From Solirubrobacter deserti (GTDB taxonomy: Bacteria; Actinomycetota; Thermoleophilia; Solirubrobacterales; Solirubrobacteraceae): a stretch of DNA of 64,000 bases. Under the pieces are notes generated by a model. That model worked only from the letters and a program-made list of their open reading frames with translations. It did no database searches and was not told the DNA's origin. The stretch spans positions 682,001 through 746,000 of the forward strand of contig NZ_QPKJ02000006.1 in the NCBI RefSeq assembly GCF_003344625.1, in the 5' to 3' direction. The translations under genes were made by a program, and so were the position numbers. Below are positions 7,323-56,698 of this stretch, piece after piece (position 1 is the stretch's first letter; each line of letters starts with the position of its first letter).

Positions 7323-7355
7323 GGAGAGCAGGCTATGCAGTCTTGGACCACAATT

Positions 7356-7372
7356 CTTGGGCGTACCCCAAG
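7356..7372. repeat. Inverted repeat upstream of the desaturase gene
   Basis: CTTGGG-CGTAC-CCCAAG is a perfect 6-bp dyad 34 bp upstream of the desaturase start and 24 bp before the end of the Lrp gene, which reads the same way. It could be a regulator site for membrane-lipid control, or part of the Lrp gene terminator. Confidence 0.4.
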
Positions 7373-7395
7373 GATTTGTGCGGTTGAATCTGTAG

Positions 7396-7836
7396 CTAGG
7401 CCTCAAAAGGGCGCTCGAACAGCGTGCTGAGCACGATCTGCGTCTGCGTCCGGGTCACGCCCGGGTGGTCGCGGATGCGCTCCAGCGTCTCCTCCAGGTG
7501 CGCGGTGTCCCGCGCGCGCACGTGCACGACCGCGCTCGCCTCACCCGCCACGGTGTAGGCCGACTCCACCTCCGGGTGGCGCTCGACGGCCTCGCGCACC
7601 TCGTGCGCCGGCATCCGTCCCTCGCAGAACAGCGCGACGATCGCGTGGGTGGTCCAGCCGAAGCGGACGGGGTCCACGCGTGAGGTGTAGCCGCGGATCA
7701 CGCCGTCGGCCTCGAGCCGGTCGACGCGGCGCTTGACGGCCGGCGCGGACAGCGAGACGCGCAGCCCGATGCTCTGGAACGAGCGCCGCGCGTCCTGGCG
7801 CAGCAGCGCAACGATCTGCCGGTCGATGTCGTCCAT
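7396..7836 (-). CDS. Lrp/AsnC-family transcriptional regulator
   Basis: A 146-residue regulator. It has an N-terminal AsnC-type helix-turn-helix (MDDIDRQIVALLRQDARRSF, then SAPAVKRRVDRLEADGVI) and a C-terminal RAM ligand domain with AYTVAGEASAVVHVRARD. The start is set at MDDIDRQIV because the family begins there; upstream codons belong to the promoter region. It is divergent from hppD (75-bp gap), so it is very probably the regulator of the tyrosine/homogentisate operon, perhaps sensing an aromatic amino acid. Confidence 0.92.
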   Translation of the reverse strand: MDDIDRQIVALLRQDARRSFQSIGLRVSLSAPAVKRRVDRLEADGVIRGYTSRVDPVRFGWTTHAIVALFCEGRMPAHEVREAVERHPEVESAYTVAGEASAVVHVRARDTAHLEETLERIRDHPGVTRTQTQIVLSTLFERPFEA

Positions 7837-7911
7837 CAGGCGCCCATGGTCCCACATGCGCGCAACGGATCGGGATTGAGCGTGCGGGACGAGAGGCGGA
7901 ACATTCCACCC

Positions 7912-9030
7912 ATGTCGACCCAGCCCATCGTCGCTCCGAGCAAGACCGAAGACTTCATGCCGCTGCACGGCATCGACCACGTCGAGTTCTTCGTCGGCAA
8001 CGCGCTGCAGGCCGCGTCGTTCTGGACGAAGGTGCTCGGCTTCAAGGAGGTGGCGTACGCCGGGCTCGAGACAGGCGTTCGCGACCGGGCGTCACACGTG
8101 CTCGAGCAGGGCCGGATCCGGATCGTGCTGACGGGCGCGCTGGTGCCCGGCCACGAGATCGGCGAGCACGTCGCGCGCCACGGCGACGGCGTGAAGGTGA
8201 TCGCGCTGGGCGTGCCGGACGTCGACCACGCCTACCGCGAGGCCACCGCGCGCGGCGCGCGTGGCGTCGAGGAGCCGCGTGATGTGAGCGACGAGCACGG
8301 CACGCTGCGCCGCGCGTCGATCGCCACCTACGGCGACACCATCCACACGTTCGTCGACCGCTCCCAGTACAAGGGCGCCTTCCACCCCGGGTTCGCGGCG
8401 CGGGACATCGACACGGGCGACACGGGCCTGCTCGCGATCGACCACATCGTCGGCAACGTCGAGCTCGGCCACATGGACGAGTGGGTCAAGTACTACGAGG
8501 ACGTCTTCGGGATGCGCGAGATGCTGCACTTCTCCGACGAGGACATCTCGACCGAGTACTCCGCGCTGATGTCGAAGGTCGTCACCAACGGCAACGGGCG
8601 CGTGAAGTTCCCGCTCAACGAGCCGGCCGAGGGCAAGCGCAAGTCGCAGATCGACGAGTACCTGGAGTACTACGGCGGCGCGGGCGCGCAGCACATCGCG
8701 GTCGCGACGCGCGACATCGTGCGCACCGTCGAGCAGTTGCAGGAGCGCGGCATCCAGTTCCTGCGCACGCCGGAGACCTACTACGACGACGTGCCCGAGC
8801 GCATCGGCGAGATCAACGAGGACCTCGAGGACCTCAAGCGGCTCGGCATCCTCGTCGACCGCGACGACGAGGGCTACCTGCTGCAGATCTTCACCAAGCC
8901 GATCGGCGACCGCCCGACCGTCTTCCTCGAGGTGATCGAGCGCCACGGCGCGCGTGGGTTCGGCGACGGCAACTTCAAGGCGCTGTTCGAGGCCATCGAG
9001 CGCGAGCAGGCCCTGCGCGGCAACCTGTAG
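7912..9030 (+). CDS. hppD: 4-hydroxyphenylpyruvate dioxygenase
   Basis: A 372-residue Fe(II) enzyme converting 4-hydroxyphenylpyruvate to homogentisate in tyrosine breakdown. It has two vicinal-oxygen-chelate domains. The three iron ligands can be placed in AIDHIVGNV, GAQHIAVATRD and VFLEVIERHG, and the family C-terminal signature GFGDGNFKALFEAIE is intact. The ATG follows a GAGAGGCGGA ribosome-binding stretch. It is the first gene of an operon with a serpin gene (3-nt gap), hmgA and a maleylacetate-reductase-like gene. Confidence 0.97.
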   Translation: MSTQPIVAPSKTEDFMPLHGIDHVEFFVGNALQAASFWTKVLGFKEVAYAGLETGVRDRASHVLEQGRIRIVLTGALVPGHEIGEHVARHGDGVKVIALGVPDVDHAYREATARGARGVEEPRDVSDEHGTLRRASIATYGDTIHTFVDRSQYKGAFHPGFAARDIDTGDTGLLAIDHIVGNVELGHMDEWVKYYEDVFGMREMLHFSDEDISTEYSALMSKVVTNGNGRVKFPLNEPAEGKRKSQIDEYLEYYGGAGAQHIAVATRDIVRTVEQLQERGIQFLRTPETYYDDVPERIGEINEDLEDLKRLGILVDRDDEGYLLQIFTKPIGDRPTVFLEVIERHGARGFGDGNFKALFEAIEREQALRGNL

Positions 9031-9033
9031 GAC

Positions 9034-9900
9034 ATGCTCCTGGACCAGCTCAGCGGTGATGTCGTCTTCTCGCCCTACGGCCTGCACCGTGCGCTGAGCG
9101 TGATCCGTGGGGGCGCGACGGGTGAGACCCGGCGCGCTCTCGAGCGGTTCGAGATGCCGCCCGAGGTGCCGGGCGTGGTGAGTGCCCAGGCGGCGTGGCT
9201 GCACGAGGACTACCGGCCGGGCCGGAAGCTCAGGCTCGACACCGGCCCGCTCGACCTCGAAGCGATCAACGCGTGGTCGAGCGAGCACACGCGCGGGATG
9301 ATCCCGCGCATCCTCGAGTCGCTCGACCCGGACGAGGTCTTCGTCCTCACCGACGCCGAGTACCTCGACGCGAAGTGGCAGCGCCCGTTCGAGGACACGC
9401 GCCCGGCCCCGTTCGAGGGCGTGGGCGACGTGCCGATGATGAGCGTCGAGGGCACGTTCGAGTACGCCGACGGCGCCGTCCGGCTGCCCTACTCCGAGCA
9501 CGACCTGCGCTTCGTGGCGACGCTCGGCGAGCCGGGCGAGCGGGACTGGGCGCGCGGGCACGGGACAGTTGAGCTGCCCCGGTTCACGGTCGAGAGCTCG
9601 ATCGACGTCAACGAGGTGCTCGGCTTGAGCTTCGAGACCGGGCACGACCTGGACGAGCTGATCGAAGGGCCGGGCGCGAAGGGGATCAGCCGGATCCTGC
9701 AGCGCGCGCGGGTCGACGTCGACGAGGAGGGCACCCGCGCCGCGGCCACCACCGCGGTGATGGCGCGCGCCGTCGCCTTCATCCAGCCGCAGTTCCACAT
9801 CGTCTTCGACCGGCCCTTCACGTGGGCCATCGAGCACGCGCCGACCGGCACGGTCCTGTTCGCCGGGCGCGTGGTGAACCCAGTGCAGAGGAGAGACTGA
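9034..9900 (+). CDS. Compact bacterial serpin inside the homogentisate operon
   Basis: A 288-residue serpin-family protein. The N-terminus shows the serpin helix region VVFSPYGLHRALSVIRGGAT. The C-terminus has the reactive-loop hinge VDEEGTRAAATTAVMARA followed by the closing strands IVFDRPFTWAIEH and GTVLFAGRVVNP. The hinge has small residues at P12-P9, as in inhibitory serpins. The protein is short against the usual 350-400 residues; the missing part lies between residues 45 and 110. No signal peptide is seen, so the protein should be cytoplasmic. It is tightly packed between hppD (3 nt) and hmgA (TGATG overlap). The target protease is unknown, and the P1 residue cannot be fixed. Confidence 0.88.
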   Translation: MLLDQLSGDVVFSPYGLHRALSVIRGGATGETRRALERFEMPPEVPGVVSAQAAWLHEDYRPGRKLRLDTGPLDLEAINAWSSEHTRGMIPRILESLDPDEVFVLTDAEYLDAKWQRPFEDTRPAPFEGVGDVPMMSVEGTFEYADGAVRLPYSEHDLRFVATLGEPGERDWARGHGTVELPRFTVESSIDVNEVLGLSFETGHDLDELIEGPGAKGISRILQRARVDVDEEGTRAAATTAVMARAVAFIQPQFHIVFDRPFTWAIEHAPTGTVLFAGRVVNPVQRRD

Positions 9901-11081
9901 TGCGCTACGTGTCACTCGGCCGCGTCCCCGCGAAGCGGCACGTCCAGTTCCGCGACCCCGACTCGTCGGCGAACGGGAACGCGCCGCTGCTCGTCGAGGA
10001 GGTCATGGGCTTCGAGGGCTTCTCCGGCAACGAGTCGATCCTCTACCACCTGTTCTCGCCCTGCCGGGTCAAGGAGGTCGGGGAGTTCACGCCGATCGAG
10101 CTCGAGGAGTGGGTGCCCGAGACGCACGTGCACCGCCTCACGCACACGATGGGCACCGAGGCCTTCGGGGACGCGGTGCTGGGACGGCGCGTGCTGCAGT
10201 ACAACGGGGACGTCGAGATCGCGATCTGCGTGCCCGAGCGCGAGGCCGACTACTTCTACCGCGACGGCGAGGGCGACGAGGTCATCTTCGTCCACGAGGG
10301 GTCGGGCGTCGTGGAGACCATCTTCGGGACGCTGCCCTACCGCAAGCACGACTACGTCGTGATCCCGCGCGGGACGACGTACCGCTTCCGCTTCGACGAG
10401 CCCCAGCGCTGGCTGACCTTCTACACCCCGGGCGAGATCGAGACGCCGAACCGCTACCGCAACCGCTACGGCCAGCTGCTCGAGCACGCGCCGTTCTCCC
10501 AGCGCGACTTCCATCCCCCGGCGGAGCTGGTCACGCACCGCGACCGCGCCGAGCACGACGTGAAGGTCCGCGTCCGCGGCGGCTACCAGGACTACGTGCT
10601 CGACTACCACCCGCTCGACGTGGTCGGCTGGGACGGCTACGTCTACCCGTACACGTTCAACATCCACGACTTCGAGCCCAAGGCCGGCCGCCTGCACCAG
10701 CCGCCGCCCGCGCACCAGACCTTCCAGGGCCCGAACTTCGTGATCTGTTCGTTCTGCCCGCGCATGCTCGACTGGGACCCGATGGCGGTCGCGCTGCCCT
10801 ATCACCACTCCAACGTGCAGAGCGAAGAGGTCATGTACTACGTCGACGGCGACTACGCCGCGCGCAAGGGCGTCGAGATCGGCTCGTTCACGCTGCATCC
10901 GAGCGGCCTGCCGCACGGCCCGCAGCCGGGCACCGTCGAGAAGTCGTTGGGCGTGAAGGAGACGTCCGAGCTCGCCGTGATGTGCGATACGTTCCGCCCC
11001 TTGAAGCTCACGACGCTCGCCCGCGACCTGGACGATCCGAGCTATGCGTACTCCTGGTACGAGGACCCCGTTGGCACGTAG
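9900..11081 (+). CDS. hmgA: Homogentisate 1,2-dioxygenase
   Basis: A 393-residue cupin-fold Fe(II) dioxygenase that opens the homogentisate ring to maleylacetoacetate. Family marks are LTHTMGTEAFGD, EVIFVHEGSGVVETIFG, PYHHSNVQSEEVMYYVDG (His and Glu iron ligands) and FTLHPSGLPHGPQPG (last His ligand). It is somewhat shorter than the roughly 440-residue eukaryotic enzyme, as in many actinobacteria. The start ATG overlaps the serpin stop. Maleylacetoacetate isomerase and fumarylacetoacetase genes are not in this window. Confidence 0.95.
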   Translation: MRYVSLGRVPAKRHVQFRDPDSSANGNAPLLVEEVMGFEGFSGNESILYHLFSPCRVKEVGEFTPIELEEWVPETHVHRLTHTMGTEAFGDAVLGRRVLQYNGDVEIAICVPEREADYFYRDGEGDEVIFVHEGSGVVETIFGTLPYRKHDYVVIPRGTTYRFRFDEPQRWLTFYTPGEIETPNRYRNRYGQLLEHAPFSQRDFHPPAELVTHRDRAEHDVKVRVRGGYQDYVLDYHPLDVVGWDGYVYPYTFNIHDFEPKAGRLHQPPPAHQTFQGPNFVICSFCPRMLDWDPMAVALPYHHSNVQSEEVMYYVDGDYAARKGVEIGSFTLHPSGLPHGPQPGTVEKSLGVKETSELAVMCDTFRPLKLTTLARDLDDPSYAYSWYEDPVGT

Positions 11082-12138
11082 CTTTCGCTGGCAGGACGGT
11101 GAACGGCTCATCGTCTTCGGCCGCGGCGCGCTGGACGACGCCGTCGACGCACTCGGCGGGCCGGGCTACACGCTGCTGACGACGCCGCGTGCGAAGGACG
11201 CCGCGCCGGGCATCGTGGCCGGCGCGGACGCATTCCACATCGTCGCGCCGGGCCACGTCGACCAGCTGGCCGTGGAGCTGCTGGACGCCGTCCGGGGCGA
11301 CCGGATCGTCGCGCTCGGCGGCGGCCGCGTCATCGACGTGGCGAAGGCGATCGTGGCCGCGCACGCCACACGCGTGGGTGGCGCCGCCACGGCCGGCTCG
11401 TCGCCGGCCGCCACCCCCGGCTCCTCGCCGGCCACCACCCCCGGCCGCGTCCCGCGCGCGATGGCGGTGCCCACGACCCTCTCGGGCGCGGAGATGACCC
11501 GCGTGCACCGGCACGCCGCCGGCGTCGCCGAGTCCACCCCGCGCGTGCGGCCCGCGGTCGTGGTCGTCGATCCCGCGCTCGCCGCCTCGCAGCCGCGCGC
11601 CGATCTCGCGGCCAGCTCCCTCAACGCGCTCGGCCACGCCGTCGAGGCGCCGTGCATGGTCAACGCCAACCCGGTCGCGACGCTCGTCGCGCACGAGGCC
11701 GCGCGGCTGCTGTTCGCCGGCTGGGTCGGGAGCGAGCCGGACCGCGACCTGCTCGCGCTCGGCTCGCTGCTGGCGGGCTACGCGCTCGACAACACGGGGC
11801 TCGCGCTGCACCACGTGCTCAGCCAAACGCTCGTGCGCGTCGCGGGCGTCGGCCACGGCCCGGCCAACGCGGCGATGCTCCCGCACACGATCGGCGCGCT
11901 CGAGTGGCGCTTCCCGAGCGTGATCGAGGCGCTCAACGCCGCGGTCGGCGAGGACGTCGTCGAGGTCGCCCTACGCATCCGCGCGTACACGGGCGCCGCG
12001 GGGCTGCGCGAGCTCGGCGTGGACCCGGCCGTGCTGCCCGAGTGCGCGGACGCCGCCGCAGCGCGGCCGCAACTGCAGCTCACGCCGCCGGCGGCCGACC
12101 GCGCGGAGATCCTCGCGCTCTACGAACGCGCGCTTTAG
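11071..12138 (+). CDS. Iron-ADH-fold dehydrogenase, maleylacetate-reductase-like
   Basis: About 355 residues of the iron-containing alcohol dehydrogenase fold. The nucleotide-binding loop is GDRIVALGGGRVIDVAKA, followed by AVPTTLSGAEMT. The segment SLNALGHAVEA has Asn where metal-dependent ADHs have Asp; this fits the maleylacetate reductase branch. LALHHVLSQTL and GHGPANAAMLPH carry the later histidines. The TTG at 11071 is preferred because GAGGA lies 5 nt upstream; an ATG at 11044 is the alternative and overlaps hmgA more. Residues near 109-124 are a low-complexity insertion. Its role in homogentisate breakdown is not obvious. The stop overlaps the convergent SnoaL gene by 4 bp. Confidence 0.85.
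   Translation: MARSFRWQDGERLIVFGRGALDDAVDALGGPGYTLLTTPRAKDAAPGIVAGADAFHIVAPGHVDQLAVELLDAVRGDRIVALGGGRVIDVAKAIVAAHATRVGGAATAGSSPAATPGSSPATTPGRVPRAMAVPTTLSGAEMTRVHRHAAGVAESTPRVRPAVVVVDPALAASQPRADLAASSLNALGHAVEAPCMVNANPVATLVAHEAARLLFAGWVGSEPDRDLLALGSLLAGYALDNTGLALHHVLSQTLVRVAGVGHGPANAAMLPHTIGALEWRFPSVIEALNAAVGEDVVEVALRIRAYTGAAGLRELGVDPAVLPECADAAAARPQLQLTPPAADRAEILALYERAL
11395..11442 (+). repeat. Tandem 24-bp duplication inside the reductase gene
   Basis: Two adjacent 24-bp copies (11395-11418 and 11419-11442) differ at two positions and encode GSSPAATP and GSSPATTP. They fall between the nucleotide-binding loop and the next conserved strand. Confidence 0.8.
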
Positions 12139-12476
12139 GCCGCTCGCAGCGGCGCCGTGTCGTGCACCTGCCGGATCCGGACGATCCGGCCGTCGCGCAC
12201 GGTGAAGTGCTCGGCCACGCGGAAGTCGCCCACGCCTTCGACGTCCATGTCGTACAGCAGCATCGCCTCGTCGCCGCCGCTCAGCGCCGACCGCAGCTCG
12301 ACCGCGCGTGCCAGGGCGCCGAACCCGGCGACCGCCTCCGCGAACGACGCCTTCGTCGGATACGCGTTGATCGGCACCTCCACCTGCAGGTCGTCGTCGA
12401 GCAGCTCCGCGGCGCGGGCGTAGTCCCCGCCGGTCCAGGCGTCGTGATACCGGCGCACCGTCGTCATCGTGTCCAT
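12135..12476 (-). CDS. SnoaL-like / nuclear-transport-factor-2-fold protein
   Basis: A 113-residue protein with the NTF2/SnoaL pattern: MDTMTTVRRYHDAWTGGDYARAAELLDDDL, a middle strand region (MLLYDMDVEG) and the closing FTVRDGRIVRIRQVHD. These folds serve as small enzymes or ligand-binding proteins, and no catalytic residues can be assigned. It is divergent from the ArsR gene and shares its 53-bp operator region, so it is probably under the same repressor. Confidence 0.8.
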   Translation of the reverse strand: MDTMTTVRRYHDAWTGGDYARAAELLDDDLQVEVPINAYPTKASFAEAVAGFGALARAVELRSALSGGDEAMLLYDMDVEGVGDFRVAEHFTVRDGRIVRIRQVHDTAPLRAA

Positions 12477-12490
12477 TTTCACAAGCTACC

Positions 12491-12519
12491 ACTTGTACAA
12501 GTAAGCGACTGTGTACACT
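12491..12519. promoter_or_regulatory. Double palindromic operator between the SnoaL and arsR-type genes
   Basis: ACTTGTACAAGT (12491-12502) is a perfect 12-bp palindrome. GTGTACAC (12511-12518) is a second palindrome with the same TGTACA-type core, centred 18 bp away. A TACACT -10-like hexamer (12514-12519) overlaps the second, and TTGTAC in the first could serve as -35. The layout suits autorepression by the ArsR protein. Confidence 0.6.
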
Positions 12520-12529
12520 GGTTCGGCAC

Positions 12530-12832
12530 ATGAGCGAAGCGGCGCTTCAGGCGATCGCCGAGCCGCGCCGGCGCGAGATCCTGCGCCTCGTGCGCGACCG
12601 GCCCCATTCGGTCAACGAGATCGCCGAGCGGTTCGACATTTCCCAGCAGGCGGTCTCCCAGCACCTGAAGGTCCTGCGTGAGGCCGGGCTCGTCACGGTG
12701 CAGCCGAGCGGCCAACGGCGCCTGTACGCGATTCGCACCGAAGGCTTGGAGTCGGTGCGCGAGCTGTTGGCCGAGCTGTGGCCGGCCCGGCTGGCCGAGC
12801 TCAAGCGCGTGGTGGAGGACGATCGGTGCTGA
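12530..12832 (+). CDS. ArsR-family transcriptional regulator
   Basis: A 100-residue winged-helix repressor of the ArsR type, with LQAIAEPRRREILRLVRD, the recognition helix region ISQQAVSQHLKVLREAGLV and the wing PSGQRRLYAI. No cysteine pair for metal sensing is visible. This matches the ArsR group that pairs with SRPBCC proteins rather than arsenic sensors. Its stop overlaps the GTG start of the SRPBCC gene (GTGCTGA). Confidence 0.93.
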   Translation: MSEAALQAIAEPRRREILRLVRDRPHSVNEIAERFDISQQAVSQHLKVLREAGLVTVQPSGQRRLYAIRTEGLESVRELLAELWPARLAELKRVVEDDRC

Positions 12833-13293
12833 CCGAGGCGGTCGAGATCGACGCGCCGCCGGAGGTGGTGTTCGAGTACTTCACCCGCCCCGAGTTGATC
12901 GTGCGCTGGATGGGCGAGTGGGCGGAGCTCGAGCCGGAGCCCGGCGGGCGCTTCGCTCTCGACATCACCGGCCACCCCGTGCGCGGCCGGTACGTCGCGC
13001 TCGAGCCGCCCCACCGGCTTGTCTTCACCTGGGGCTACGCCGGCAGCGACGACGTGCCCCCGGGATCCACCTCGGTCGAGGTCCGGCTCGTCGCGATCGA
13101 CGGCGGTACCCGGGTCGAGCTCGAGCACCGCGGACTTCCGGCTGCACGCGAGCGCGAGCACCACATCGGCTGGCAGCACTACCTCGCGCGGCTGGCACGC
13201 GACGACGCGTCACCGGACCCCGGCATGCCCAGCGCCCGAGGGGCGAATTCCCCGCTCTTTGCGCCCGACCCCCCAACCCCTACCAGAAAGTAG
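12826..13293 (+). CDS. SRPBCC (AHSA1-like) domain protein
   Basis: A 155-residue START-like protein of the Aha1/SRPBCC type. It opens EAVEIDAPPEVVFEYFTRPE, followed by VRWMGEWAELEPEPGG and the HRLVFTWGY strand typical of this group. Such proteins bind hydrophobic ligands; the function here is unknown. The GTG start overlaps the ArsR stop, a very common pairing. The last 25 residues are proline rich and probably disordered. Confidence 0.9.
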   Translation: MLTEAVEIDAPPEVVFEYFTRPELIVRWMGEWAELEPEPGGRFALDITGHPVRGRYVALEPPHRLVFTWGYAGSDDVPPGSTSVEVRLVAIDGGTRVELEHRGLPAAREREHHIGWQHYLARLARDDASPDPGMPSARGANSPLFAPDPPTPTRK

Positions 13294-13318
13294 GGTTTAG
13301 AAATCGTCCGATCGGTCG

Positions 13319-13537
13319 ATGACCGGGTCAACCATGCACATCGTCGGGGATTCAGACGCCTGGTCCTGGCCGCCCGTCGGCGAGGTGGAAGAACCGCTGC
13401 GCACGCCGCTGTGGCTCATCCGCACGCTCGCCGACGCGCTGGCGGAGGAGGACCAGCCCAGCATCGAGCATCGCCAGCACGTGGCGCGCCAGATCGCGCG
13501 CACCGCTGAGGAGCTCGAGCGCTCCCTGATGAACTAG
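13319..13537 (+). CDS. Small acidic hypothetical protein
   Basis: A 72-residue reading frame with a plausible soluble composition: DSDAWSWPPVGEVEEPLRTP followed by a long amphipathic helix (LADALAEEDQPSIEHRQHVA, then RTAEELERSL). The start may instead be the ATG at 13334. I do not recognise a family. The antisense frame over the same stretch looks like a composition artefact. It ends 19 bp before the convergent secG gene. Confidence 0.5.
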   Translation: MTGSTMHIVGDSDAWSWPPVGEVEEPLRTPLWLIRTLADALAEEDQPSIEHRQHVARQIARTAEELERSLMN

Positions 13538-13556
13538 TCGGCGCGCCGCGCCGGCT

Positions 13557-13781
13557 CTAGAGCATCAGGATGGCCATGGTGTTCACGACGAACAGCACGG
13601 CGAAGACCACGGTCCAGCGATCCAGGTTCTTCTCCATCAGCGAGCCGCCCGAGGTGCCGCCCGCGACGCCGACGCCGAACGCGCCGGACATGCCCGCGTC
13701 CTTGCCCGAGTGCAGCAGCACCAGGAAGATGACGCCGAGCGAGAGGACGACCTGAATGACGCTGAGAACCGTGTTGACCAT
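13557..13781 (-). CDS. secG: Preprotein translocase subunit SecG
   Basis: A 74-residue SecG, the small stabilising subunit of the SecYEG channel in the cytoplasmic membrane. Two transmembrane helices flank the conserved cytoplasmic loop: VLSVIQVVLSLGVIFLVLL, then GVGVAGGTSGGSL, then WTVVFAVLFVVNTMAILML. It lies 10 nt downstream of the CcmI-like gene, so it may be cotranscribed with the cytochrome maturation genes. The usual actinobacterial neighbour tpiA is 22 kb away. Confidence 0.93.
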   Translation of the reverse strand: MVNTVLSVIQVVLSLGVIFLVLLHSGKDAGMSGAFGVGVAGGTSGGSLMEKNLDRWTVVFAVLFVVNTMAILML

Positions 13782-13791
13782 GATCGGCGGC

Positions 13792-14070
13792 TTAGGGTAG
13801 CGGCTCGAGTTGGTCGAGACGCTTGAGGATCTCGACGGCTTCGGCACGAAGCGTGCGGTCGAGCGTCTTCCAGTCCGTCTCGCTGAGCTTGCCGGTCCGA
13901 TAGTCCAGCTCGGCGTCGCGGATCTCCTGGTACTTCGCCTCCTTGAGCGCGTCGAGTTCGGCACGCTCAGCCTCCAGGCGCTCGTCGGACTCGCGGGCGG
14001 AGCCGCGCAGCGGACCGGCCACGGCCAGGATCGCGCCGCCGACCACCGCGAGGATCACCAGGAACTCCAT
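13792..14070 (-). CDS. CcmI-like cytochrome c maturation small membrane protein
   Basis: A 92-residue protein: one N-terminal transmembrane helix (MEFLVILAVVGGAILAV) and a charged helical tail containing ALKEAKYQEIRDAELDYRTG and KLSETDWKTLD. That tail resembles the first cytoplasmic segment of CcmI, which helps apocytochrome c handling at the heme lyase. The start overlaps the ccmF stop as TGATG. It lacks the TPR region of proteobacterial CcmI, so only the membrane-anchor portion is present. Confidence 0.7.
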   Translation of the reverse strand: MEFLVILAVVGGAILAVAGPLRGSARESDERLEAERAELDALKEAKYQEIRDAELDYRTGKLSETDWKTLDRTLRAEAVEILKRLDQLEPLP

Positions 14071-16253
14071 CAGGCGGGAACGCTCTCGGGCTCGCGGACG
14101 TCCTTGCCCACGCGCGCGGCGTACTTGGCGGACGCGATCTTCGTCAGGCCCCGGCGCGTCGGCCAGCCGGCGAGGATGCCGCCGAGCACCGCGATCAGCG
14201 AGCCGATCCAGATCCACGTCACGAGCGGGTTGACCTCGAAGCGGAAGCGGGCCGGCGGCGGCGCGTCGGCGTACCCGTCGACGAGCCCGCGCAACGCGAC
14301 GCCGAGGAACTCGTTCGCCTGATCCTCGGTGAGCTCGTCGGCCGCGTTGGCGAAGACCTTGTCGCCCTCTTCGATCCGCGGACGCAGCTTGTTGATGTCA
14401 GGCGCCACGGCGGCCCAGGTGTCCTTGCCGAGCGTCGCGTTCAGCGCCACCTCGGTCGTGGCCTCGCCGTCGAAGAAGCGCGAGACCGGCCCGAGCGAGG
14501 TGTCCTGGGACGGGAAGTAGTCCTTGGACGTGTGCATCGTGCGGCCCTCGACGCGCAGCTCGGCGCCGAACTGGATCTTCTCCAGCCGCCCGTTGGGCGC
14601 CGCCACCAGCTCGCTCGTCGGCTTGACGTAGGTGAACTCCTTGCCGCCGACGGTCGCCGACTCGCCCGGCCGCAGCGCGACGTCCTGGATGTCCTTGAAG
14701 GACGAGGACGCGGCCACGCCGACGAACAGGACGATGATCCCGACATGTACGAGGTAGCCGCCGTAGCGGCGCCGGTTGCGCTTGACGAGCTGGAGCAGCG
14801 CGACCGGCACGGCCTCCTTGGCCGCGGCTCGCCGCGCGCGGGTCCCGCGCCAGAACTCCTGCACGACCGTCCCCACGACGAACCCGGCGAGCGTGAACAT
14901 GATCAGCGCGGTCACGGACTCCGTCACGCCCAGCGCGAGCAGCGCGACGAGCACGACCACGCCGAACAGCGCCGGCTTGCCGAGGTTGCGCTTGAGGTTG
15001 GCGCCCGTCGCGCGGCGCCACGCGATCACCGGGCCGACCGCGGACAGCAGCACGAGGATCAGCGCCAGCGGCACGATGAAGCGCTCGTAGACGGGCGGGC
15101 CGATGTTGCGCTGGCGGCCCGTGAACGCCTCGGCGATCAGCGGGAAGAACGTGCCCCAGAAGACGACGAAGCACATCGCCACGAGCACGAAGTTGTTGAG
15201 CACGAACATCGCCTCGCGCGAGAGCAGTGAGTCGAGCCGCTTGTCGGACTTCAGCGACTCCTGGCGGCTCGTGACCAGGTAGATCGAACCGGCGATCATC
15301 ACCGCCAGCAGGATCAGGAACGGCACGCCGAGCGTCGACGCGCCGAACGCGTGGATCGAGTTCAACACGCCGGACCGCACGAGGAACGTGCCGAGGATCG
15401 AGAGCACGCCGGTGGCCAGCACCAGCGACACGTTCCAGGTCCGCAGGAGCCCGCGCCGCTCCTGGATCATCACGCTGTGCAGGAACGCGGTGGCCGTCAG
15501 CCACGGCATCAGCGACGCGTTCTCGACCGGGTCCCACATCCAGTAGCCGCCCCAGTCGAGCTCGTGGTAGCTCCAGCGGGCGCCGAGCACGATGCCGAAC
15601 CCGAGCGCGCACCAAGCGGCGAGCGTGAACGGGCGCGTGGAGCGGATCCACTCCGCGTCCAGCCGGCGCGTGATCAGCGCCGCGATCCCGAACGCGAACG
15701 GCACCGCGAACAGCGTGTAGCCGCTGTAGAGCATCGGCGGGTGGATCATCATCCCCGGGTCGCGCAGCAGCGGGTTCAGGCCGGCGCCCTCGGCCACGAC
15801 GCGGTCCGCGCGGATGAACGGCGACTCCGCGAACAGCATCACGCCCGCGAAGAACGCGGCGAAGCCGAGCAGGACGGCCGTCGCGTAGGGCGCCAGCGCG
15901 CGCAGCTTGTGCCGGGTGAGGAAAAGGATAAGGCTCGACCAGAGCCCGAGGCTGAACAGCCACAGCAGCAGCGAGCCCTCCTGCGAGGACCACATGGCGG
16001 TCAGCCGGTAGAAGAGCGGCGTCGTGGTCGACGAGTGGGAGGCGACGACCGCGTACTCGAAGTCCGAGCGCACGAACGCGGCCTCCAGCAGCACGAACGC
16101 GACCGTGGTGGCACCCGCCATCGCGTAGACGGCGCGGCGACCGGACGCGACGAAGTCACGCCGCTTGGCCCGCGCGCCGTAGATCGAGGCCGCGATCCCG
16201 TAGAGCGCGGACGCGAACGCGACGATCAGGCAGGCATGACCTGCGGCAATCAC
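14070..16253 (-). CDS. ccmF: Heme lyase CcmF (cytochrome c maturation, System I)
   Basis: A 727-residue polytopic membrane protein of the heme-handling family, the heme lyase subunit that attaches heme to apocytochrome c outside the membrane. It carries the WWD signature as WGGYWMWDPVENAS near residue 235, PPMLYSGY, and the conserved LGTFLVRSGVLNSIHAF. Family histidines flank the WWD loop. A soluble C-terminal region (residues about 530-680) precedes the last helix. ccmE sits immediately upstream (1-nt gap). CcmA, B, C and D are not in this window. Confidence 0.96.
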   Translation of the reverse strand: MIAAGHACLIVAFASALYGIAASIYGARAKRRDFVASGRRAVYAMAGATTVAFVLLEAAFVRSDFEYAVVASHSSTTTPLFYRLTAMWSSQEGSLLLWLFSLGLWSSLILFLTRHKLRALAPYATAVLLGFAAFFAGVMLFAESPFIRADRVVAEGAGLNPLLRDPGMMIHPPMLYSGYTLFAVPFAFGIAALITRRLDAEWIRSTRPFTLAAWCALGFGIVLGARWSYHELDWGGYWMWDPVENASLMPWLTATAFLHSVMIQERRGLLRTWNVSLVLATGVLSILGTFLVRSGVLNSIHAFGASTLGVPFLILLAVMIAGSIYLVTSRQESLKSDKRLDSLLSREAMFVLNNFVLVAMCFVVFWGTFFPLIAEAFTGRQRNIGPPVYERFIVPLALILVLLSAVGPVIAWRRATGANLKRNLGKPALFGVVVLVALLALGVTESVTALIMFTLAGFVVGTVVQEFWRGTRARRAAAKEAVPVALLQLVKRNRRRYGGYLVHVGIIVLFVGVAASSSFKDIQDVALRPGESATVGGKEFTYVKPTSELVAAPNGRLEKIQFGAELRVEGRTMHTSKDYFPSQDTSLGPVSRFFDGEATTEVALNATLGKDTWAAVAPDINKLRPRIEEGDKVFANAADELTEDQANEFLGVALRGLVDGYADAPPPARFRFEVNPLVTWIWIGSLIAVLGGILAGWPTRRGLTKIASAKYAARVGKDVREPESVPA

Positions 16254-51028: not shown

Positions 51029-53107
51029 CTACGGGTTCGTGGTGGAGAGCGTGAACGTCAGCGTCTTGCTGTACGTCCCCGTCCGCAGTGGGTCGCCGGC
51101 GCCGATGGCCTGCTTGAAGGCCACCGTCACCGGGTCGTTGCTGACCGGACCGGACCAGGTCAGCAGAGGTGTGGAGGCACCCACCGGGACGGGCGCGGCG
51201 CCGGCGCCGGCGGCCGGGCTCGACGCGGCCGCGCGCAGCGGCTGCGCGAGCGCGAACGCGCCGTTGACGAGCTTGCCGGTGTTGACCGGGTCGGCGTCGC
51301 CGACGCTCAGCGTGGCGTCGCCCGCCGTGCTGATCACGTCCGCGTGCGTGCTGGCGTCGTACTCCTGCGCGACGCCCGGCACGAACGGCGGGAACGCCGC
51401 CGCACCCTTGAGCGTGAGCGAGAGCGTCGCGGGCACCGTGCCGCCGACGCCGCCGGCCGTGCACAGGCTGCGGTTGGCCATCTGGCCGCGCGCGATCTTC
51501 AGGGTCGTGCGCTCGAGCACCGTCCCGTCCGGCGCGGCGCACACGAGGTCGTACGCCTCGTCGAGGTGCGCCGCGTCGTACTGGCTGGCGCGCAGCGACG
51601 GGTTGATGTGCCACTCGAACTTCCCGCTCGCTCCGACCGTGATCGTCTGCGCGATCGCGTTCGGGAACGCGCGCACCTGCGCGGGCTGGCCCGTCTCCCA
51701 CACGAGGCTCGAGCTGTCCAGCAGCGTCGACTTCGAGAGCGTGAGCTTGGTGCCCGCGGGCGCGGTGCCGGTGAGCACCGAGTGCAGCTTGGCCTCCGTC
51801 GCCGCCTCGAAGGCGTCGTAATAGAGGCCGCGCATCGTCTGGCCGGCGTAGCGCGTTCCCGTGCCCAGGTAGTTGTCGATCACGTTCTGGTACGGCGGGT
51901 GGAACGTCTGCGGGGCGCTGAAGCCCGGCGTCGCCTCGGGCGTGAAGCCGAACGCGCCGTACGCGTAGTACGCCTGCTGCTCGGCGGTCGAGGACGCTTC
52001 GTAGTAGACGTCGGTCCACGGGCCCGCGGGCCAGCCCGGCAGGTTCTTGGCCAGCCGCTGCAGCAGCTCCTCGTAGACGACCTCGTCCGCGACGACCTCC
52101 GGCTCGTTCGAGGAGCTGGGCGCGCGCAGCAGGCGCTGGTCGGGCGTGTGGTTGTTGATCGCGACCGTGACGTTGCTCTTGTTGAGCAGGTCGATCATGC
52201 CGCGGTTCTCGGGCTCGGACGCGGGCGCCGAGCCGCGGTGGTTGGACGCGGTGGCGTTCGAGGACGAGCCCGGACCGCCCCAGAACGGGATGTAGTTGCG
52301 GTTGTTGTCGACGCCGCGGTTGACGTTCGCCGCCGCGGTGCAGTCGGCGAGCGTCGGGGTGGCGCCGGCCGTGATGCGGCAGTTCTTGCGCTTCTGCTCG
52401 TTCTGAAGGCTGCGGCTGAGCTCGTAGCCGTCGGGGTTGACGACGGGGACGGCGATCAGCTTGCCCTTGCTGAGCAGCGCGTTGGCGTCGTCGCCGGGCT
52501 TGTCGTTGAGCAGCAGGTCCCACACGAACTCGAGCGTGAACTCGGCGGTCGGCCACTCGCGCGCGTGGTGGACGCCCGACAGCAGGAACGACGGCTTGGC
52601 GCCGGCGTTCGCGACGTCATGGCTGACCTCGACGCCGTAGATCGGCTTGCCGAGCAGCGAGGGCTCGCTCAGCGTGAACAGCTTGACCTTGTCCGGGTAG
52701 GTCGTCGCGAGTTGCTGGAGCTCGGCGTTGATGTCGGTCAGGGTGCGGTACGCGACGCGGCCGGTCGGCAGCGTGGACAGCGGAGCGATCCCGCGCTCGA
52801 CGCGCTGCTGGCGCGCCTCCTCGGGCTCGAGGTAGTGGTCGTTGGCGCCCTCCAGGTCCTCGGTGAGGACCTTGTAGGCGTAGCCCGATTCGTCGAGGAT
52901 CTGCCGGTCCTCGGGGCCGTGCAGCATCACTTCGGTCCGCTGCTCGCCCTCGTACGTGACGTCGAGCCCGAGCGCCTCCAGATGATGCAGCGCGGCGTGG
53001 CTCGTCTCCTTGAGCTCGACGAGCGTCGTCTTCGCGTGCGCGACGCCCGGCGCGAACAGCGCAGTCGCTGCTGCGAGCCCGGCCACGAGCTTGGATCGTT
53101 GGAACAC
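51029..53107 (-). CDS. Secreted M14 zinc carboxypeptidase
   Basis: A 692-residue exported metallopeptidase. A signal peptide (LVAGLAAATALFAPGVAHA) and a propeptide-like region (residues 25-110) precede the M14 domain. Zinc ligands are in LSGVHHAREWPT (HxxE) and AINNHTPDQRLL (third His), with VNPDGYELSRS and NVNRGVDNNRNY in the core. The last 250 residues are a beta-rich extension. GTG at 53107 is preferred to the TTG at 53125 because AGAGGGGGGAA lies just upstream of it. It probably degrades peptides outside the cell. Monocistronic, ending at a hairpin. Confidence 0.92.
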   Translation of the reverse strand: MFQRSKLVAGLAAATALFAPGVAHAKTTLVELKETSHAALHHLEALGLDVTYEGEQRTEVMLHGPEDRQILDESGYAYKVLTEDLEGANDHYLEPEEARQQRVERGIAPLSTLPTGRVAYRTLTDINAELQQLATTYPDKVKLFTLSEPSLLGKPIYGVEVSHDVANAGAKPSFLLSGVHHAREWPTAEFTLEFVWDLLLNDKPGDDANALLSKGKLIAVPVVNPDGYELSRSLQNEQKRKNCRITAGATPTLADCTAAANVNRGVDNNRNYIPFWGGPGSSSNATASNHRGSAPASEPENRGMIDLLNKSNVTVAINNHTPDQRLLRAPSSSNEPEVVADEVVYEELLQRLAKNLPGWPAGPWTDVYYEASSTAEQQAYYAYGAFGFTPEATPGFSAPQTFHPPYQNVIDNYLGTGTRYAGQTMRGLYYDAFEAATEAKLHSVLTGTAPAGTKLTLSKSTLLDSSSLVWETGQPAQVRAFPNAIAQTITVGASGKFEWHINPSLRASQYDAAHLDEAYDLVCAAPDGTVLERTTLKIARGQMANRSLCTAGGVGGTVPATLSLTLKGAAAFPPFVPGVAQEYDASTHADVISTAGDATLSVGDADPVNTGKLVNGAFALAQPLRAAASSPAAGAGAAPVPVGASTPLLTWSGPVSNDPVTVAFKQAIGAGDPLRTGTYSKTLTFTLSTTNP

Positions 53108-53224
53108 CTTCCCCCCTCTGGTCAAGTCCCCTCCTGACCTTCTATCCGGCGTGGGAGGACGCTAGGGGAGCGGCGCCGAGGATGGAAACGGTTGGGTGTG
53201 GACATGTCTCAGCGCAGGAGCCGG

Positions 53225-54661
53225 TCACGACACCAGGCGAACTTCCAGCGCCGTGCCGTCGCCGGGCCCGATCGGCTGGCCCGCACCGCTCATCAGGCCC
53301 AGGATGCGGGCGACGTAGCCCTGCGTCTCGGGGATGTTCGGGACGCAGCCGCAGGCCTGCACCCGGCCCGGGCCCGCGTTGTAGGCGGCGAGCGCGAGCG
53401 GGACGCTGCCGAACTGGCGCAGCAGGTCGCGCATCATGTGCGCCTGGGCGTTGATCGCGCTCGTCGCGTCGAACGGGTCGTCGAGGCCGTACTGGCGCGC
53501 CGTCGCCGGCATGAACTGCGCGATGCCCTGGGCGCCGGCGGGGGACGTCACGAACGGGTTGAAGTTCGACTCGGCGTAGATCTGCGCGGCGAGCAGCGTG
53601 GCGGACACGTTCCAGCGCTGAGCGGCTTCGCGCAGCGCCGGCGCGAACCGTTGCGGGACGAAGCCGGGGACGCTGCCGCGGCCGAGGCCCGCGCGGCCGT
53701 CGCCGCCGCTGCTCGTCGACCGGGCATTGAGCGTGTACCCGTAGTGCCACGGCTCCCAGCTGTAGCGCTGCGTGAAGTGGAAGCGGCGCGCGTTGGCCGC
53801 CAGCCAGCCGTAGGCCGCGGGCGGGCCGAGGTCGAGCTCGGTGCCGTTGCGGTGCAGCGACTTCCCGGGCGGCGCCACCATTCGCGGGTCCGGGTTGCGC
53901 GCGAACAGGACCGCCTGCTCGGCGTCGGAGCGGTAGCCGCTCGTGATCGTGAGCGCGACGCCGTCCTGCTTGGCCGCCGCCTCCAGGCGATCGAAGGCCT
54001 GCGCGACGTCGGGGCGCATCGGCTTGCCCTGCCGGTACGCGAGCGGGCCGTCGTAGCCACCGCCTTCGGCGAAGCCGAGGTTCGCCGCGGCGCCGAGCTG
54101 CGCCTCGGCGGTGACGAGGATGCGCGCGCGTTCCTCATCGACCTCCACCGTGTCTCTCACGGCCACCTTGATCCGCACGGGCGCGATGGTGCGCTCGTCC
54201 GGGAAGCTGACCGTCGTGTGCGGCGCGCCGTTGGCGGCGGCCACGGCGCGCGCGGCGCTGCGGCCGAGGGCGAGATAGTCCGCCTTCGTCAGGTGCCGCG
54301 GGTTCGGCCGGCGGCGGGTGAGCGCGGGCTCGAACAGCCGCCCGTAGTTCGCGTGCATCGCCTTCGCCCCGGCGACCGCGGCGAGGTCCGCCGCGCGCTG
54401 GGCCGCCGCTTCCCGGCCCACGGCTCGGGCCAGCGCGCCGGCGATCACGACCGCGATCAGCACCCCGGCCAGACCGCCGATCAGGAGAATCGACGCCTGC
54501 CCGCGCTGCGAGTGGTCGTCTTCTCGGCCCAGCGCCGAGAGATCGAGCATTCGCGGGCGCATCGCCGCCCGTGCCCACCGCGCGTGTGCGAGGTTCGCCG
54601 CTCGCGGCCACCGAGGGCGGGCGCGGCCCCGACCCGTCCGTCGCATTGCGCGTGCGGTCAT
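53225..54661 (-). CDS. Tad-anchor + VanY (M15) peptidase + SLT lytic transglycosylase fusion
   Basis: A 478-residue three-part protein. After an Arg-rich start, residues about 52-100 are a Tad (TadE/G-like) anchor: GQASILLIGGLAGVLIAVVI with a following helix (RAADLAAVAGAKAMH). Residues about 190-320 form a VanY/M15B D,D-carboxypeptidase: TSGYRSDAEQAVLF, HRNGTELDLG (zinc H and D) and WEPWHYGY. The end is an SLT transglycosylase: IYAESNFNP (catalytic Glu), GAQGIAQFMPATA and LAAYNAGPGRV. It should cut both peptides and glycan of peptidoglycan at the outer membrane face. The start overlaps the upstream stop (ATGA) behind a GGGAGCAGGAG site. Confidence 0.88.
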   Translation of the reverse strand: MTARAMRRTGRGRARPRWPRAANLAHARWARAAMRPRMLDLSALGREDDHSQRGQASILLIGGLAGVLIAVVIAGALARAVGREAAAQRAADLAAVAGAKAMHANYGRLFEPALTRRRPNPRHLTKADYLALGRSAARAVAAANGAPHTTVSFPDERTIAPVRIKVAVRDTVEVDEERARILVTAEAQLGAAANLGFAEGGGYDGPLAYRQGKPMRPDVAQAFDRLEAAAKQDGVALTITSGYRSDAEQAVLFARNPDPRMVAPPGKSLHRNGTELDLGPPAAYGWLAANARRFHFTQRYSWEPWHYGYTLNARSTSSGGDGRAGLGRGSVPGFVPQRFAPALREAAQRWNVSATLLAAQIYAESNFNPFVTSPAGAQGIAQFMPATARQYGLDDPFDATSAINAQAHMMRDLLRQFGSVPLALAAYNAGPGRVQACGCVPNIPETQGYVARILGLMSGAGQPIGPGDGTALEVRLVS

Positions 54662-55695
54662 CTCCTGCTCCCCTCGTGCGCGTCGACGAGCGCACGGATC
54701 GGTCCGGCCGCGCGGATGCCGGCGCGCGACAGCTCGCGGGCCAGGCCGCGCTTGAGCGGACGGGTGGGCACGATGTGGCCGAGGCCCGCGCCCGCGGCCT
54801 GCGCCAGCGGGCCGTCGGGCTCCGTCGTCACCAGGACGGTGAGGTCCTGCTCGACGAGCGCGGCGTCGATCGCCGGCGTCCGCGGGGCCGTGACCGCGAG
54901 CACGACGGGCGCCGCGAGCAGCGCGACCTGCCAGACCAGGCTCGCCAGCTCCGGCGACGCCGGATCGAGCCGCACCCACACCAGCCGCCCCCGAACCCGC
55001 GGCTCGAGTCCGTGCGCTTCCAGCCGCGCCGCGACTCGCCGGCCCGCCCCTCCCCCACTGCTCGCCTCGGGCAGCGGCGGACCGACCACCGCGACCGTCG
55101 CGACCTTCGCGCGCGTCTCCCGCCGCAGCGCGAGCGCAAGCGCCGCCGCGACGGGCTCCGCCTCGCGCGGCCGCCCCAACACGGCCGCGCCCGTGAGGAC
55201 GCCCGCGTCGGCGATGAGCGCGGCCGGCGGCACGGCCGCCGCGACCGGGTTCCGCGCCCGCCGCTTGCGCCGAGTCCGTCCCGCGGGGCCCGCCGCGGAG
55301 GGCCGAGGCGAGCCCGGCGCGGCCGCGGCCGGCGAAGAAGGAGGCGCGGCGAGCGGCGGCAAGGGCACCGGGGGCGAGCCCGGCGCGACCACGGCGGACG
55401 CGAACGGCAGCCCCGGCACGAGCGCCGCGGGCGGCGGCGATGACGGGGCCGGCACGACCACGGCCGGCGCCAACGACGCGCCCGGCACACGCGCCGCGGG
55501 CGACGCCGACGACACGCCCGGCATGACCGCCGCGGGCGACGACGACGCGCCTGGCACGAGCGCCGCGGGCGGCGGCGATGACGGGGCCGGCACGACCACG
55601 GTCGGCGCCAACGGCGCGCCCGGCGTGGATCGGGAGCCGGCGGCGGAGGGCTCGGGCTCGGGTGGGGCGAGGAAGAAGTCGAGGGCGCGGCTCAT
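54658..55695 (-). CDS. Pro/Ala-rich protein of the Tad-like operon
   Basis: A 345-residue protein of unknown function. Residues 10-150 are a low-complexity Pro/Ala/Ser linker that contains a 46-residue in-frame duplication (VVVPAPSSPPPAALVPG occurs twice), closing with the basic GRTRRKRRARN. Residues 150-345 look folded, with alternating strands and helices (VATVAVVGPPLPEA, RLVWVRLDPASPELASLVWQ, LTVLVTTEPDGPLAQ). That part may be a degenerate P-loop/CpaE-like or receiver-like domain, but no Walker motif is visible. Coupled by ATGA on both sides. Confidence 0.7.
   Translation of the reverse strand: MSRALDFFLAPPEPEPSAAGSRSTPGAPLAPTVVVPAPSSPPPAALVPGASSSPAAVMPGVSSASPAARVPGASLAPAVVVPAPSSPPPAALVPGLPFASAVVAPGSPPVPLPPLAAPPSSPAAAAPGSPRPSAAGPAGRTRRKRRARNPVAAAVPPAALIADAGVLTGAAVLGRPREAEPVAAALALALRRETRAKVATVAVVGPPLPEASSGGGAGRRVAARLEAHGLEPRVRGRLVWVRLDPASPELASLVWQVALLAAPVVLAVTAPRTPAIDAALVEQDLTVLVTTEPDGPLAQAAGAGLGHIVPTRPLKRGLARELSRAGIRAAGPIRALVDAHEGSRR
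55415..55624 (-). repeat. Pair of 72-bp direct repeats, 138 bp apart
   Basis: 55415-55486 and 55553-55624 match at 70 of 72 positions. The 138-bp offset is 46 codons, so the coding frame is kept. It marks a recent in-frame duplication of the linker. Confidence 0.85.
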
Positions 55696-56102
55696 GGGGC
55701 GGACGGTCCGGCGTCGGCGTGGGCGGTTCCGGCGAGGCGGGCGGCGAGGCCCGGGATCGGCAGGGCGGTGCGGGGAAGGACGCGGACGCGCACGCGGCGA
55801 CCCGTGACGGTGATCGAGGCGCGGTTGCGGGTGGACGCCGGGAGCGCCTCGCGGGCCGCGCCGCGCGGGTCCGTCTCGCCCTGGAGGAGCGCGAGCGCGC
55901 CGGCCTGGGCGGCTTCACCGGCCTGTTCGGAGGCGGTGTAGGACGCGACGACGGTGAACCCGGCGAGCGCGAGGGCGAGGACCAGCGGCAGCAGGCCCAG
56001 GAGCTCGATCGAGGCCTGGCCGCGCTCGCCACCGGGGGTGTGTCGTTTGACTCTCGGAGAACGAGAGTCAAACGACACACCCGTGATCTCGGCCGCGCGC
56101 AT
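55692..56102 (-). CDS. TadE-like pseudopilin
   Basis: A 136-residue TadE-type minor pseudopilin. A type IV prepilin-like cleavage site, RGQASIELLGLLPLVLALAL (Gly, then Glu at +5), starts the single hydrophobic helix. The rest is an external domain (ASYTASEQAGEAAQAGALAL). The ATG overlaps the previous stop (TGATG). Codons about 8-22 consist of a perfect 21-bp hairpin that encodes VSFDSRSPRVKRHT, unusual for a TadE leader. The stop overlaps the next gene. Confidence 0.8.
   Translation of the reverse strand: MRAAEITGVSFDSRSPRVKRHTPGGERGQASIELLGLLPLVLALALAGFTVVASYTASEQAGEAAQAGALALLQGETDPRGAAREALPASTRNRASITVTGRRVRVRVLPRTALPIPGLAARLAGTAHADAGPSAP
56036..56082. repeat. Perfect 21-bp inverted repeat (REP-like hairpin) inside the tadE gene
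   Basis: GGGTGTGTCGTTTGACTCTC (plus G) at 56036-56056 is an exact reverse complement of 56062-56082 with a 5-nt loop (GAGAA). It is noticeably richer in A/T than its surroundings. It lies in the first 25 codons of a coding region. The structure resembles a repetitive extragenic palindrome or small mobile hairpin. Confidence 0.9.
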
Positions 56103-56698
56103 CACGTCTGCGGGCGGAAGTGGGAGGTGGCGCCGACCCGCCCGAGGCCCAGCGACGGCAGGATGGCCGGGACGCGGATCGACACGCGAACGTCGCCGCC
56201 CTCGCGCGTGGTGACCCGAAGGCCCCGCTCGAGTCCAGACGGGAGATGGCCGCGAGCGGCGCGTTCGGCGTCCGCGCCGACGGCGTGTGCGCGGGCGGCG
56301 GCGCGGGCCGCGACCCGCGCGTGCCAGACCGCCTGCGCCGCCAGCACGGCCTGCCAGGCCAGCGCGACGACGACGATCACGAGCGGGAGCACCGCGATGA
56401 GCTCGACGGACGCCTGGCCGCTCGCTGAACCGGCACGAGGGCCCCGCGCCCGTCGCCCGCGGACGCGCGGAAAGGCGACGCGCACGGGCCCGCGCCGCGA
56501 GGACGCGACGGAACCGGCGCCGCCCCGCGAGGACGCGACGGAACCGGCGGCGCGCGGCGGCGAGAAGGCGGCGCGGGCGGCATCGGGCGAGGGGCCTGGA
56601 GCGGCGGCGGCCCCCGTGCGAGACGTGAGCGGGTTCGGGCTCGCGGGTGGGGCGTGCGGGGCGGTCAGGCCTGCGGGGCGGACGGGGTGCGGCGGCAT
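56102..56698 (-). CDS. TadE-like pseudopilin with long low-complexity leader
   Basis: A 198-residue protein. The first 90 residues are Pro/Ala/Arg/Ser rich with a decapeptide repeat (GSVASSRGGA / GSVASSRRGP). The prepilin-like site SGQASVELIAVLPLVIVVVA (Glu at +5) and a following helix (AVWHARVAARAAARAHAVGA) define the TadE region, and a short external domain follows. The true start may lie closer to the cleavage site at one of several GTG codons. First gene of the four-gene operon. Confidence 0.75.
   Translation of the reverse strand: MPPHPVRPAGLTAPHAPPASPNPLTSRTGAAAAPGPSPDAARAAFSPPRAAGSVASSRGGAGSVASSRRGPVRVAFPRVRGRRARGPRAGSASGQASVELIAVLPLVIVVVALAWQAVLAAQAVWHARVAARAAARAHAVGADAERAARGHLPSGLERGLRVTTREGGDVRVSIRVPAILPSLGLGRVGATSHFRPQT
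56495..56549 (-). repeat. 30-bp period tandem repeat in the TadE leader
   Basis: 25 bp at 56495-56519 recur exactly at 56525-56549 (period 30 bp, 10 codons), encoding the repeated SVASSR segment. Confidence 0.8.

Follow-up and report, generated by a model that had tools for sequence, protein, structure and literature searches.

Our analysis identifies, in a stretch of 64,000 nucleotides from Solirubrobacter deserti (the window; NCBI RefSeq assembly GCF_003344625.1, contig NZ_QPKJ02000006.1, positions 682,001 to 746,000, here contig C399 of a 7.55-Mb draft genome), a 478-residue protein in which a prepilin-like N-terminus is followed by two peptidoglycan enzymes, a VanY/M15 peptidase domain and an SLT lytic transglycosylase domain. 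We favour, with modest confidence, the reading that this fusion protein is the tip-forming minor pilin of a Tad-family type-4-filament machine, whose two wall enzymes would cut a path through the monoderm wall. The machine that it serves is best read as split across loci and mostly Flp-less. The fusion gene (54661-53225) is the last of four genes on the minus strand, in the order TadE1 (56698-56102), TadE2 (56105-55692), gene 3 (55695-54658) and fusion. Overlaps of 4 bases link successive genes, with a GTGATG junction between TadE1 and TadE2 and ATGA overlaps at gene 3 and between gene 3 and the fusion, as an earlier reading made from the sequence alone (the sequence-only reading) had described them.

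Both enzyme domains named in that reading score well above their Pfam cut-offs: VanY at residues 215-310 (56.8 bits against a cut-off of 25, E 2.7e-15) and SLT at residues 343-435 (79.6 bits against 21.3, E 1.7e-22). Across an alignment of 148 sequences, H270 and D277 of the VanY part are kept in 148 of 148 and E303 and H306 in 147, while the catalytic glutamate of SLT, E364, is kept in all 148. The VanY residues fit S-x-H-x6-D and E-x2-H, which we take to be the zinc-binding and catalytic motif of M15 VanY/LdcB enzymes. Because the active-site residues are kept across the relatives, both enzyme parts look maintained by selection. Structure prediction, which had been proposed as a check, was run with AlphaFold2 and returned an N-terminal helix, a small head and two enzyme domains. 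Residues 1-50 are disordered and followed by a long helix (52-110), a small alpha/beta head at good local confidence (111-191), the VanY part, a low-confidence linker (313-329) and SLT; the resulting layout places a putative cleavage site at G54|Q55, the end of the head at about residue 191, VanY/M15 at about 203-310 and SLT at about 337-457. In the PDB, Foldseek ranked BaLdcB and VanYB first for the model, with VanXYc and Slt after them; when the N-terminal region was searched against the PDB by itself, no entry scored below E 0.18. Known VanY/LdcB and Slt structures (4mph, 5hnm, 5ohu) share fold and catalytic residues with the fusion protein, which differs in joining both enzymes on one pilin-like protein and in its shorter VanY part, of 91 profile positions where VanYB (5hnm) has 124 residues. 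The enzymes would thus be a VanY/LdcB-like carboxypeptidase (D,D or L,D) and an SLT lytic transglycosylase, and automatic database annotation already names both domains. Enzymes of the VanY type shorten the stem peptide from its end and leave the cross-link uncut, so the proposal that one protein could cut both main bonds of peptidoglycan is overstated; the VanY family assignment lends no support to cross-link cutting.

The N-terminus of the fusion protein carries the marks of a prepilin. In the 123 of 148 alignment rows with residues at this position (25 rows have none), G54 is found in 121 and Q55 in 122, and a hydrophobic helix follows. The residue at +5 is L in 107 rows, V in eight, P in three, M in two, A in two and F in one, and glutamate in none of the 123, whereas glutamate stands at +5 after the glycine in 28 of 29 TadE1 rows (the exception being TadE1 of locus L061) and in all 28 TadE2 rows listed, the two queries having matched one and the same open reading frame (ORF) in six loci. 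In the window itself the two partners read G|QASVE (TadE1) and G|QASIE (TadE2). According to passages of one study, a hydrophobic +5 residue against partners with Glu5, large size and a position at the 3' end of the cluster form the signature of GspK-type first subunits (PMC5207764). All three traits are found in the fusion, as in GspK/PulK of type II secretion: it has the hydrophobic +5, is larger than its partners and is encoded last in its cluster. In the same passages GspK carries an inserted alpha domain and not enzymes, and no homology with GspK is claimed here. The fusion protein would be processed by a prepilin peptidase, with cleavage at G54|Q55.

A survey of the class Thermoleophilia for the same architecture, also proposed earlier, found a fusion match (E<=1e-36) in 109 of 299 sampled genomes, distributed over five families (39 in f1, 26 in f2, 11 in f3, 3 in f4 and 30 in f5). 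In 94 genomes a single match begins no later than residue 60 and extends to at least residue 455, ten of these matches being listed with an in-match stop codon, and the other 15 genomes hold partial matches, some at contig ends. In one of the 15, a one-contig assembly (G260, locus L057), the fusion gene is broken over three frames, by decay or by sequencing error. The protein database held 7969 relatives at E<=1e-20 among 7995 candidates scored, and both VanY and SLT are present in all 120 database entries among the matches listed (P0001 being the window's own). An identical protein occurs in Solirubrobacter deserti CPCC 204708; in the wider search that gave this strain, most of 80 loci match the SLT part only. 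We considered and rejected a wide spread beyond the class, because in 396 genomes of the phylum the outside-class matches (E<=1e-20) cover only residues 310-471, which is the SLT part. Of a plasmid collection, 1391 records match the fusion, none of them over 80% of the protein.

The operon was then compared with the fusion loci of 30 relatives, each examined together with as much as 20 kb of its surroundings; these loci and the Tad loci described below were chosen from high-scoring genomes, with fusion-less genomes as controls for the latter, and are not a random sample. In 28 of the 30 fusion loci the fusion is preceded, on its own strand, by a TadE-like ORF (in L073 at only 17 bits). The motor genes sit elsewhere, as the sequence-only reading had partly seen when it placed tadA/B/C away from these genes. 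In the Solirubrobacter deserti genome the fusion is on contig C399 and the motor on contig C1, where tadA-tadB-tadC (L044, 7239-10122) stop some 0.3 kb short of mraZ. After mraZ come rsmH, an ftsL-like gene and ftsI, genes of the dcw cell-wall cluster, and the region from tadA onward extends over 7239-14224. Upstream of tadABC lie a histidine kinase and a CpaB-like SAF protein (SAF 32.7 bits against a cut-off of 21; RcpC 24.9 bits, below the cut-off of 28.8). The order tadA-tadB-tadC shortly before mraZ-rsmH-ftsL-ftsI recurs in most of L077-L096, L106-L108 and L113, often with the histidine kinase and the CpaB-like gene; a SAF protein lies near a histidine kinase and TadABC in many relatives, and a response regulator is found upstream of tadABC too in L082, L083 and L088. 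Among 27 fusion-bearing genomes read, 22 have mraZ no more than about 5 kb after tadABC, on the same strand, and two have it further off (8.2 kb in L093; about 14 kb in L081 with L111); in L095, L109 and L114 it falls outside the stretch, L114 being cut by a contig end. In the nine fusion-less controls (L097-L105) mraZ was in none of the stretches and no fusion-like ORF was found; contig ends cut two of them, L098 and L100. Tad genes were located by a stop-to-stop ORF search and distances were taken from the listed coordinates, L083 and L106 being judged by gene order. In genome G087 (L081, L111) a second, Flp-type Tad cluster sits between the dcw-type tadABC and mraZ, which places two Tad sets before dcw. 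The single locus of a canonical Tad system is thus not what was found here: the motor lies mostly beside dcw and the minor pilins elsewhere. Searches of open-access literature, with subscription papers and preprints outside their scope, turned up no description of a tadABC-dcw link and none of a pilin-like VanY-SLT fusion. A paper that had come up for a tadA/mraZ linkage (PMC9395523) was rejected, as its relevant passages concern the dye TADA.

Co-occurrence was scored at cut-offs of our own choosing (fusion E<=1e-36, TadA E<=1e-40, TadC E<=1e-3, Flp E<=0.01). TadA was found in 91 and TadC in 93 of the 109 fusion-bearing genomes, and one or the other in 97. The earlier suggestion that these genes form a wall-remodelling module linked to Tad-type machinery is supported, and the motor, although not encoded next to the operon, is not lacking from the genome. 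The major pilin behaves otherwise: Flp was found in 8 of the 109 fusion-bearing genomes against 72 of the 190 others (Fisher p 2e-9, kinship ignored), and in five of these eight (G065, G077, G087, G178 and G280) it shares a contig with a second, more distant Tad set. In Solirubrobacter deserti itself there is no Flp at E<=0.01 with PF04964, and PF14029 gives nothing over its cut-off (best E 0.29). A scan of 11 dcw-type tadABC loci returned no convincing prepilin, whereas the three fusion-less Tad loci scanned, out of the nine, all contain Flp-like and TadE ORFs, two of the three Flp matches being below the Pfam cut-off. An unrecognised major pilin in our genome is possible, because KilP, the major pilin of Kil, was likewise identified late according to passages on that system (PMC12075869).

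In the proposed mechanism the fusion protein would be the largest, TadG-like minor pilin at the tip, with VanY/LdcB-like and SLT domains attached to form its exposed end. TadE1 and TadE2 would be its partners in assembly, and the TadA/TadB/TadC motor, whose genes adjoin the dcw cluster, would drive it outward. SLT would cut glycan strands and the VanY-type domain trim stem peptides, so that a filament or pseudopilus could cross the thick monoderm wall. Wall hydrolases are familiar companions of envelope-crossing machines, such as FlgJ of the flagellar rod and the VirB1/CwlT-type enzymes of type IV secretion, and CwlT pairs two wall enzymes. The fusion would resemble these in having a lytic transglycosylase or muramidase dedicated to the passage of a machine; they are not pilins, whereas its enzymes sit on a prepilin-like subunit. 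A further parallel is with TadG, KilN and CpaL. Passages of one paper describe TadE/TadF/TadG-type trimers as tips, with TadG/KilN carrying a variable C-terminal domain, on the basis of structure prediction and, for Kil, genetics (PMC12075869), and CpaL, a TadG orthologue, is predicted to be a tip minor pilin plus vWA (PMC12607857). Like these, the fusion has a pilin-like N-terminus, comes last in a TadE-TadE(F)-TadG-like set of which it is the largest member, and carries an extra C-terminal part that at the tip would be exposed. It differs in that its C-terminus consists of two peptidoglycan enzymes and theirs of a vWA or unknown domain, in its sub-threshold Tad score and in having its motor genes at another locus. 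Passages of a 2025 paper on RcpC state that neither a peptidoglycan hydrolase nor a lytic transglycosylase had been reported with the Tad pilus (PMC12307814).

Several observations weigh against this reading. The Tad domain of the fusion reaches only 15.1 bits (Pfam cut-off 22.3), TIGR03816 (NCBIfam, Rv3654c family TadE-like) over residues 52-105 stays at 28.4 bits (1.4e-6; cut-off 50.95), and 7 of the 120 database entries among the matches listed carry a precomputed PF13400 assignment. The TadG-like anchor proposed earlier may be better called a TadG-like tip minor pilin. The TadE matches of the two small proteins (17.2 and 16.6 bits) fall below the cut-off of 22.9. Confidence in the single-chain model is moderate (pLDDT 74.7, pTM 0.52). 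That TadG is a minor pilin is itself a prediction, according to passages of PMC12307814, and one review places TadG in a membrane sub-complex (PMC10191384). No TadA, TadB or TadC match was found in any of the 30 relatives' fusion stretches, and the evidence for TadA/TadC of the dcw-linked kind comes from the 27 genomes read. Twelve of the 109 fusion-bearing genomes have neither TadA (E<=1e-40) nor TadC, all of them drafts of at least 90 contigs and one (G155) with a weaker TadA match of 6.9e-27. Conversely, seven fusion-less genomes of families f1-f5 (G055, G067, G073, G119, G133, G224 and G258) have TadA at E<=1e-40 and no Flp. Finally, the sole A24 prepilin peptidase found in the Solirubrobacter deserti genome, on contig C93, lies about 25 kb from the T2SSE/T2SSF genes of another pilus-type system, and no TadV belonging to the fusion system was found in that genome.

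Among the alternatives, one that we would put at only about one chance in four is a wall-remodelling machine without a long pilus: a short TadE pseudopilus, driven by the dcw-encoded TadABC motor under two-component control, would push a two-enzyme head through or along the cell's own wall. Somewhat less credible is an enzyme held in the membrane by a borrowed TadE/TadG-like anchor, which would remodel the wall during growth or division and work independently of the Tad motor. The distance of the motor genes, the twelve genomes with neither TadA nor TadC and the mostly housekeeping surroundings (uvrC, rapZ, gap and pgk by sequence; uvrC in 27 of the 30 relatives' fusion loci) speak for such an enzyme. 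The conserved G|Q and +5 pattern would be unexpected in a plain anchor, however, the operon keeps two TadE-like partners, and TadA and/or TadC accompany the fusion in 97 of 109 genomes, the exceptions all being drafts. A contact-dependent weapon, in which a Kil-like Tad machine would turn its tip enzymes on the walls of other bacteria, appears improbable. Such a machine has a precedent in Kil of Myxococcus, a Tad-type system for killing whose tips vary and whose genes are split over several loci according to passages of two papers (PMC12075869, PMC8460266), whereas the active sites and the domain pair of the fusion hardly vary and its presumed motor genes lie beside the cell's own wall-synthesis cluster. 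We know of no predatory habit in the bacteria that bear the fusion. An equally slim chance attaches to a DNA-uptake (competence) filament whose enzymes would open the wall for a pseudopilus, much as Micrococcus luteus relies on Flp/Tad genes for transformation; transformation that depends on Flp-pilus biogenesis is reported in an actinobacterium (PMC4322843; species from PMC6370729), but no competence gene stood out among the neighbours read, in a reading that included no search aimed at competence genes. That separate genes were fused by an assembly or gene-calling error can be set aside as next to impossible, since nothing beyond the weak Tad score was found in its favour and the fusion is conserved in many genomes (94 spanning matches, the identical CPCC 204708 protein, VanY and SLT in all 120 entries among the matches listed), so that neither this error nor a missing Tad or VanY domain, the two findings named beforehand as fatal, came to pass: VanY scores well above its cut-off and Tad only weakly.

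Of the remaining genes of the operon, gene 3 (345 amino acids) has the Pro/Ala linker that had been described, at its N-terminus, but a predicted MinD/ParA-type fold of about 180 residues behind it had been overlooked. This domain has no Walker A motif, the nucleotide-binding motif of MinD/ParA-type ATPases; for that reason gene 3 was not accepted as a bona fide TadZ, and it is at most a candidate for a degenerate TadZ/CpaE-like pseudo-ATPase. Among the loci read it is present only in relatives of family f1. It has 104 relatives at E<=0.001, and wherever an organism is given for them it is Solirubrobacter or Solirubrobacteraceae. Upstream of TadE1, with a response regulator gene on its other side, lies C0 (56780-57151, minus strand), 123 very hydrophobic residues with no Pfam match, found in the fusion cluster of 26 of the 30 relatives and matched in L048 and L054 too; it is probably a membrane protein and possibly a further component of the system.

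Two start codons deserve comment. The fusion may begin at 54661 or at 54550, from which database entry P0001 predicts the identical protein as 441 instead of 478 amino acids. For TadE1 the true start is likely the in-frame GTG at 56485, which would shorten the ORF to 127 amino acids and leave its initial 71 codons probably untranslated; the best-matching ORF of its relatives has 113-126 amino acids in 19 of 28 and 108-147 in 26 of 28. Inside this probably untranslated 5' part a short direct repeat, GGTTCCGTCGCGTCCTCGCGG, occurs twice (56495-56545). A long palindrome spans 56021-56097 at the TadE1/TadE2 junction, with perfect core arms at 56040-56056 and 56062-56078, a 5-nt loop and an RNA fold z-score of -7.4. 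No counterpart was found in the stretch read from the congener L047, and a dispersed repeat was rejected, because the core occurs only once in the genome even when up to 3 mismatches are allowed; the palindrome could be a regulatory hairpin or an insertion. Downstream of the fusion, on the same strand, lies a zinc carboxypeptidase gene (51029-53125; Peptidase_M14, 6.9e-38), seen among the relatives' printed contexts only in L047.

With regard to the tip location of the fusion, the partnership of the two loci and their purpose, we infer a filament machine that carries its own wall-cutting tools. Two wall-cutting domains welded to an apparent tip subunit suggest how a pilus-type machine may pass its own thick cell wall, and would extend the idea of the functionalised tip from recognition domains to catalysis. 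The fusion also offers a genetic handle, a single gene whose active sites, pilin signal and motor could each be probed separately, and the tadABC-dcw link may connect a filament motor with the division and wall programme of these bacteria.

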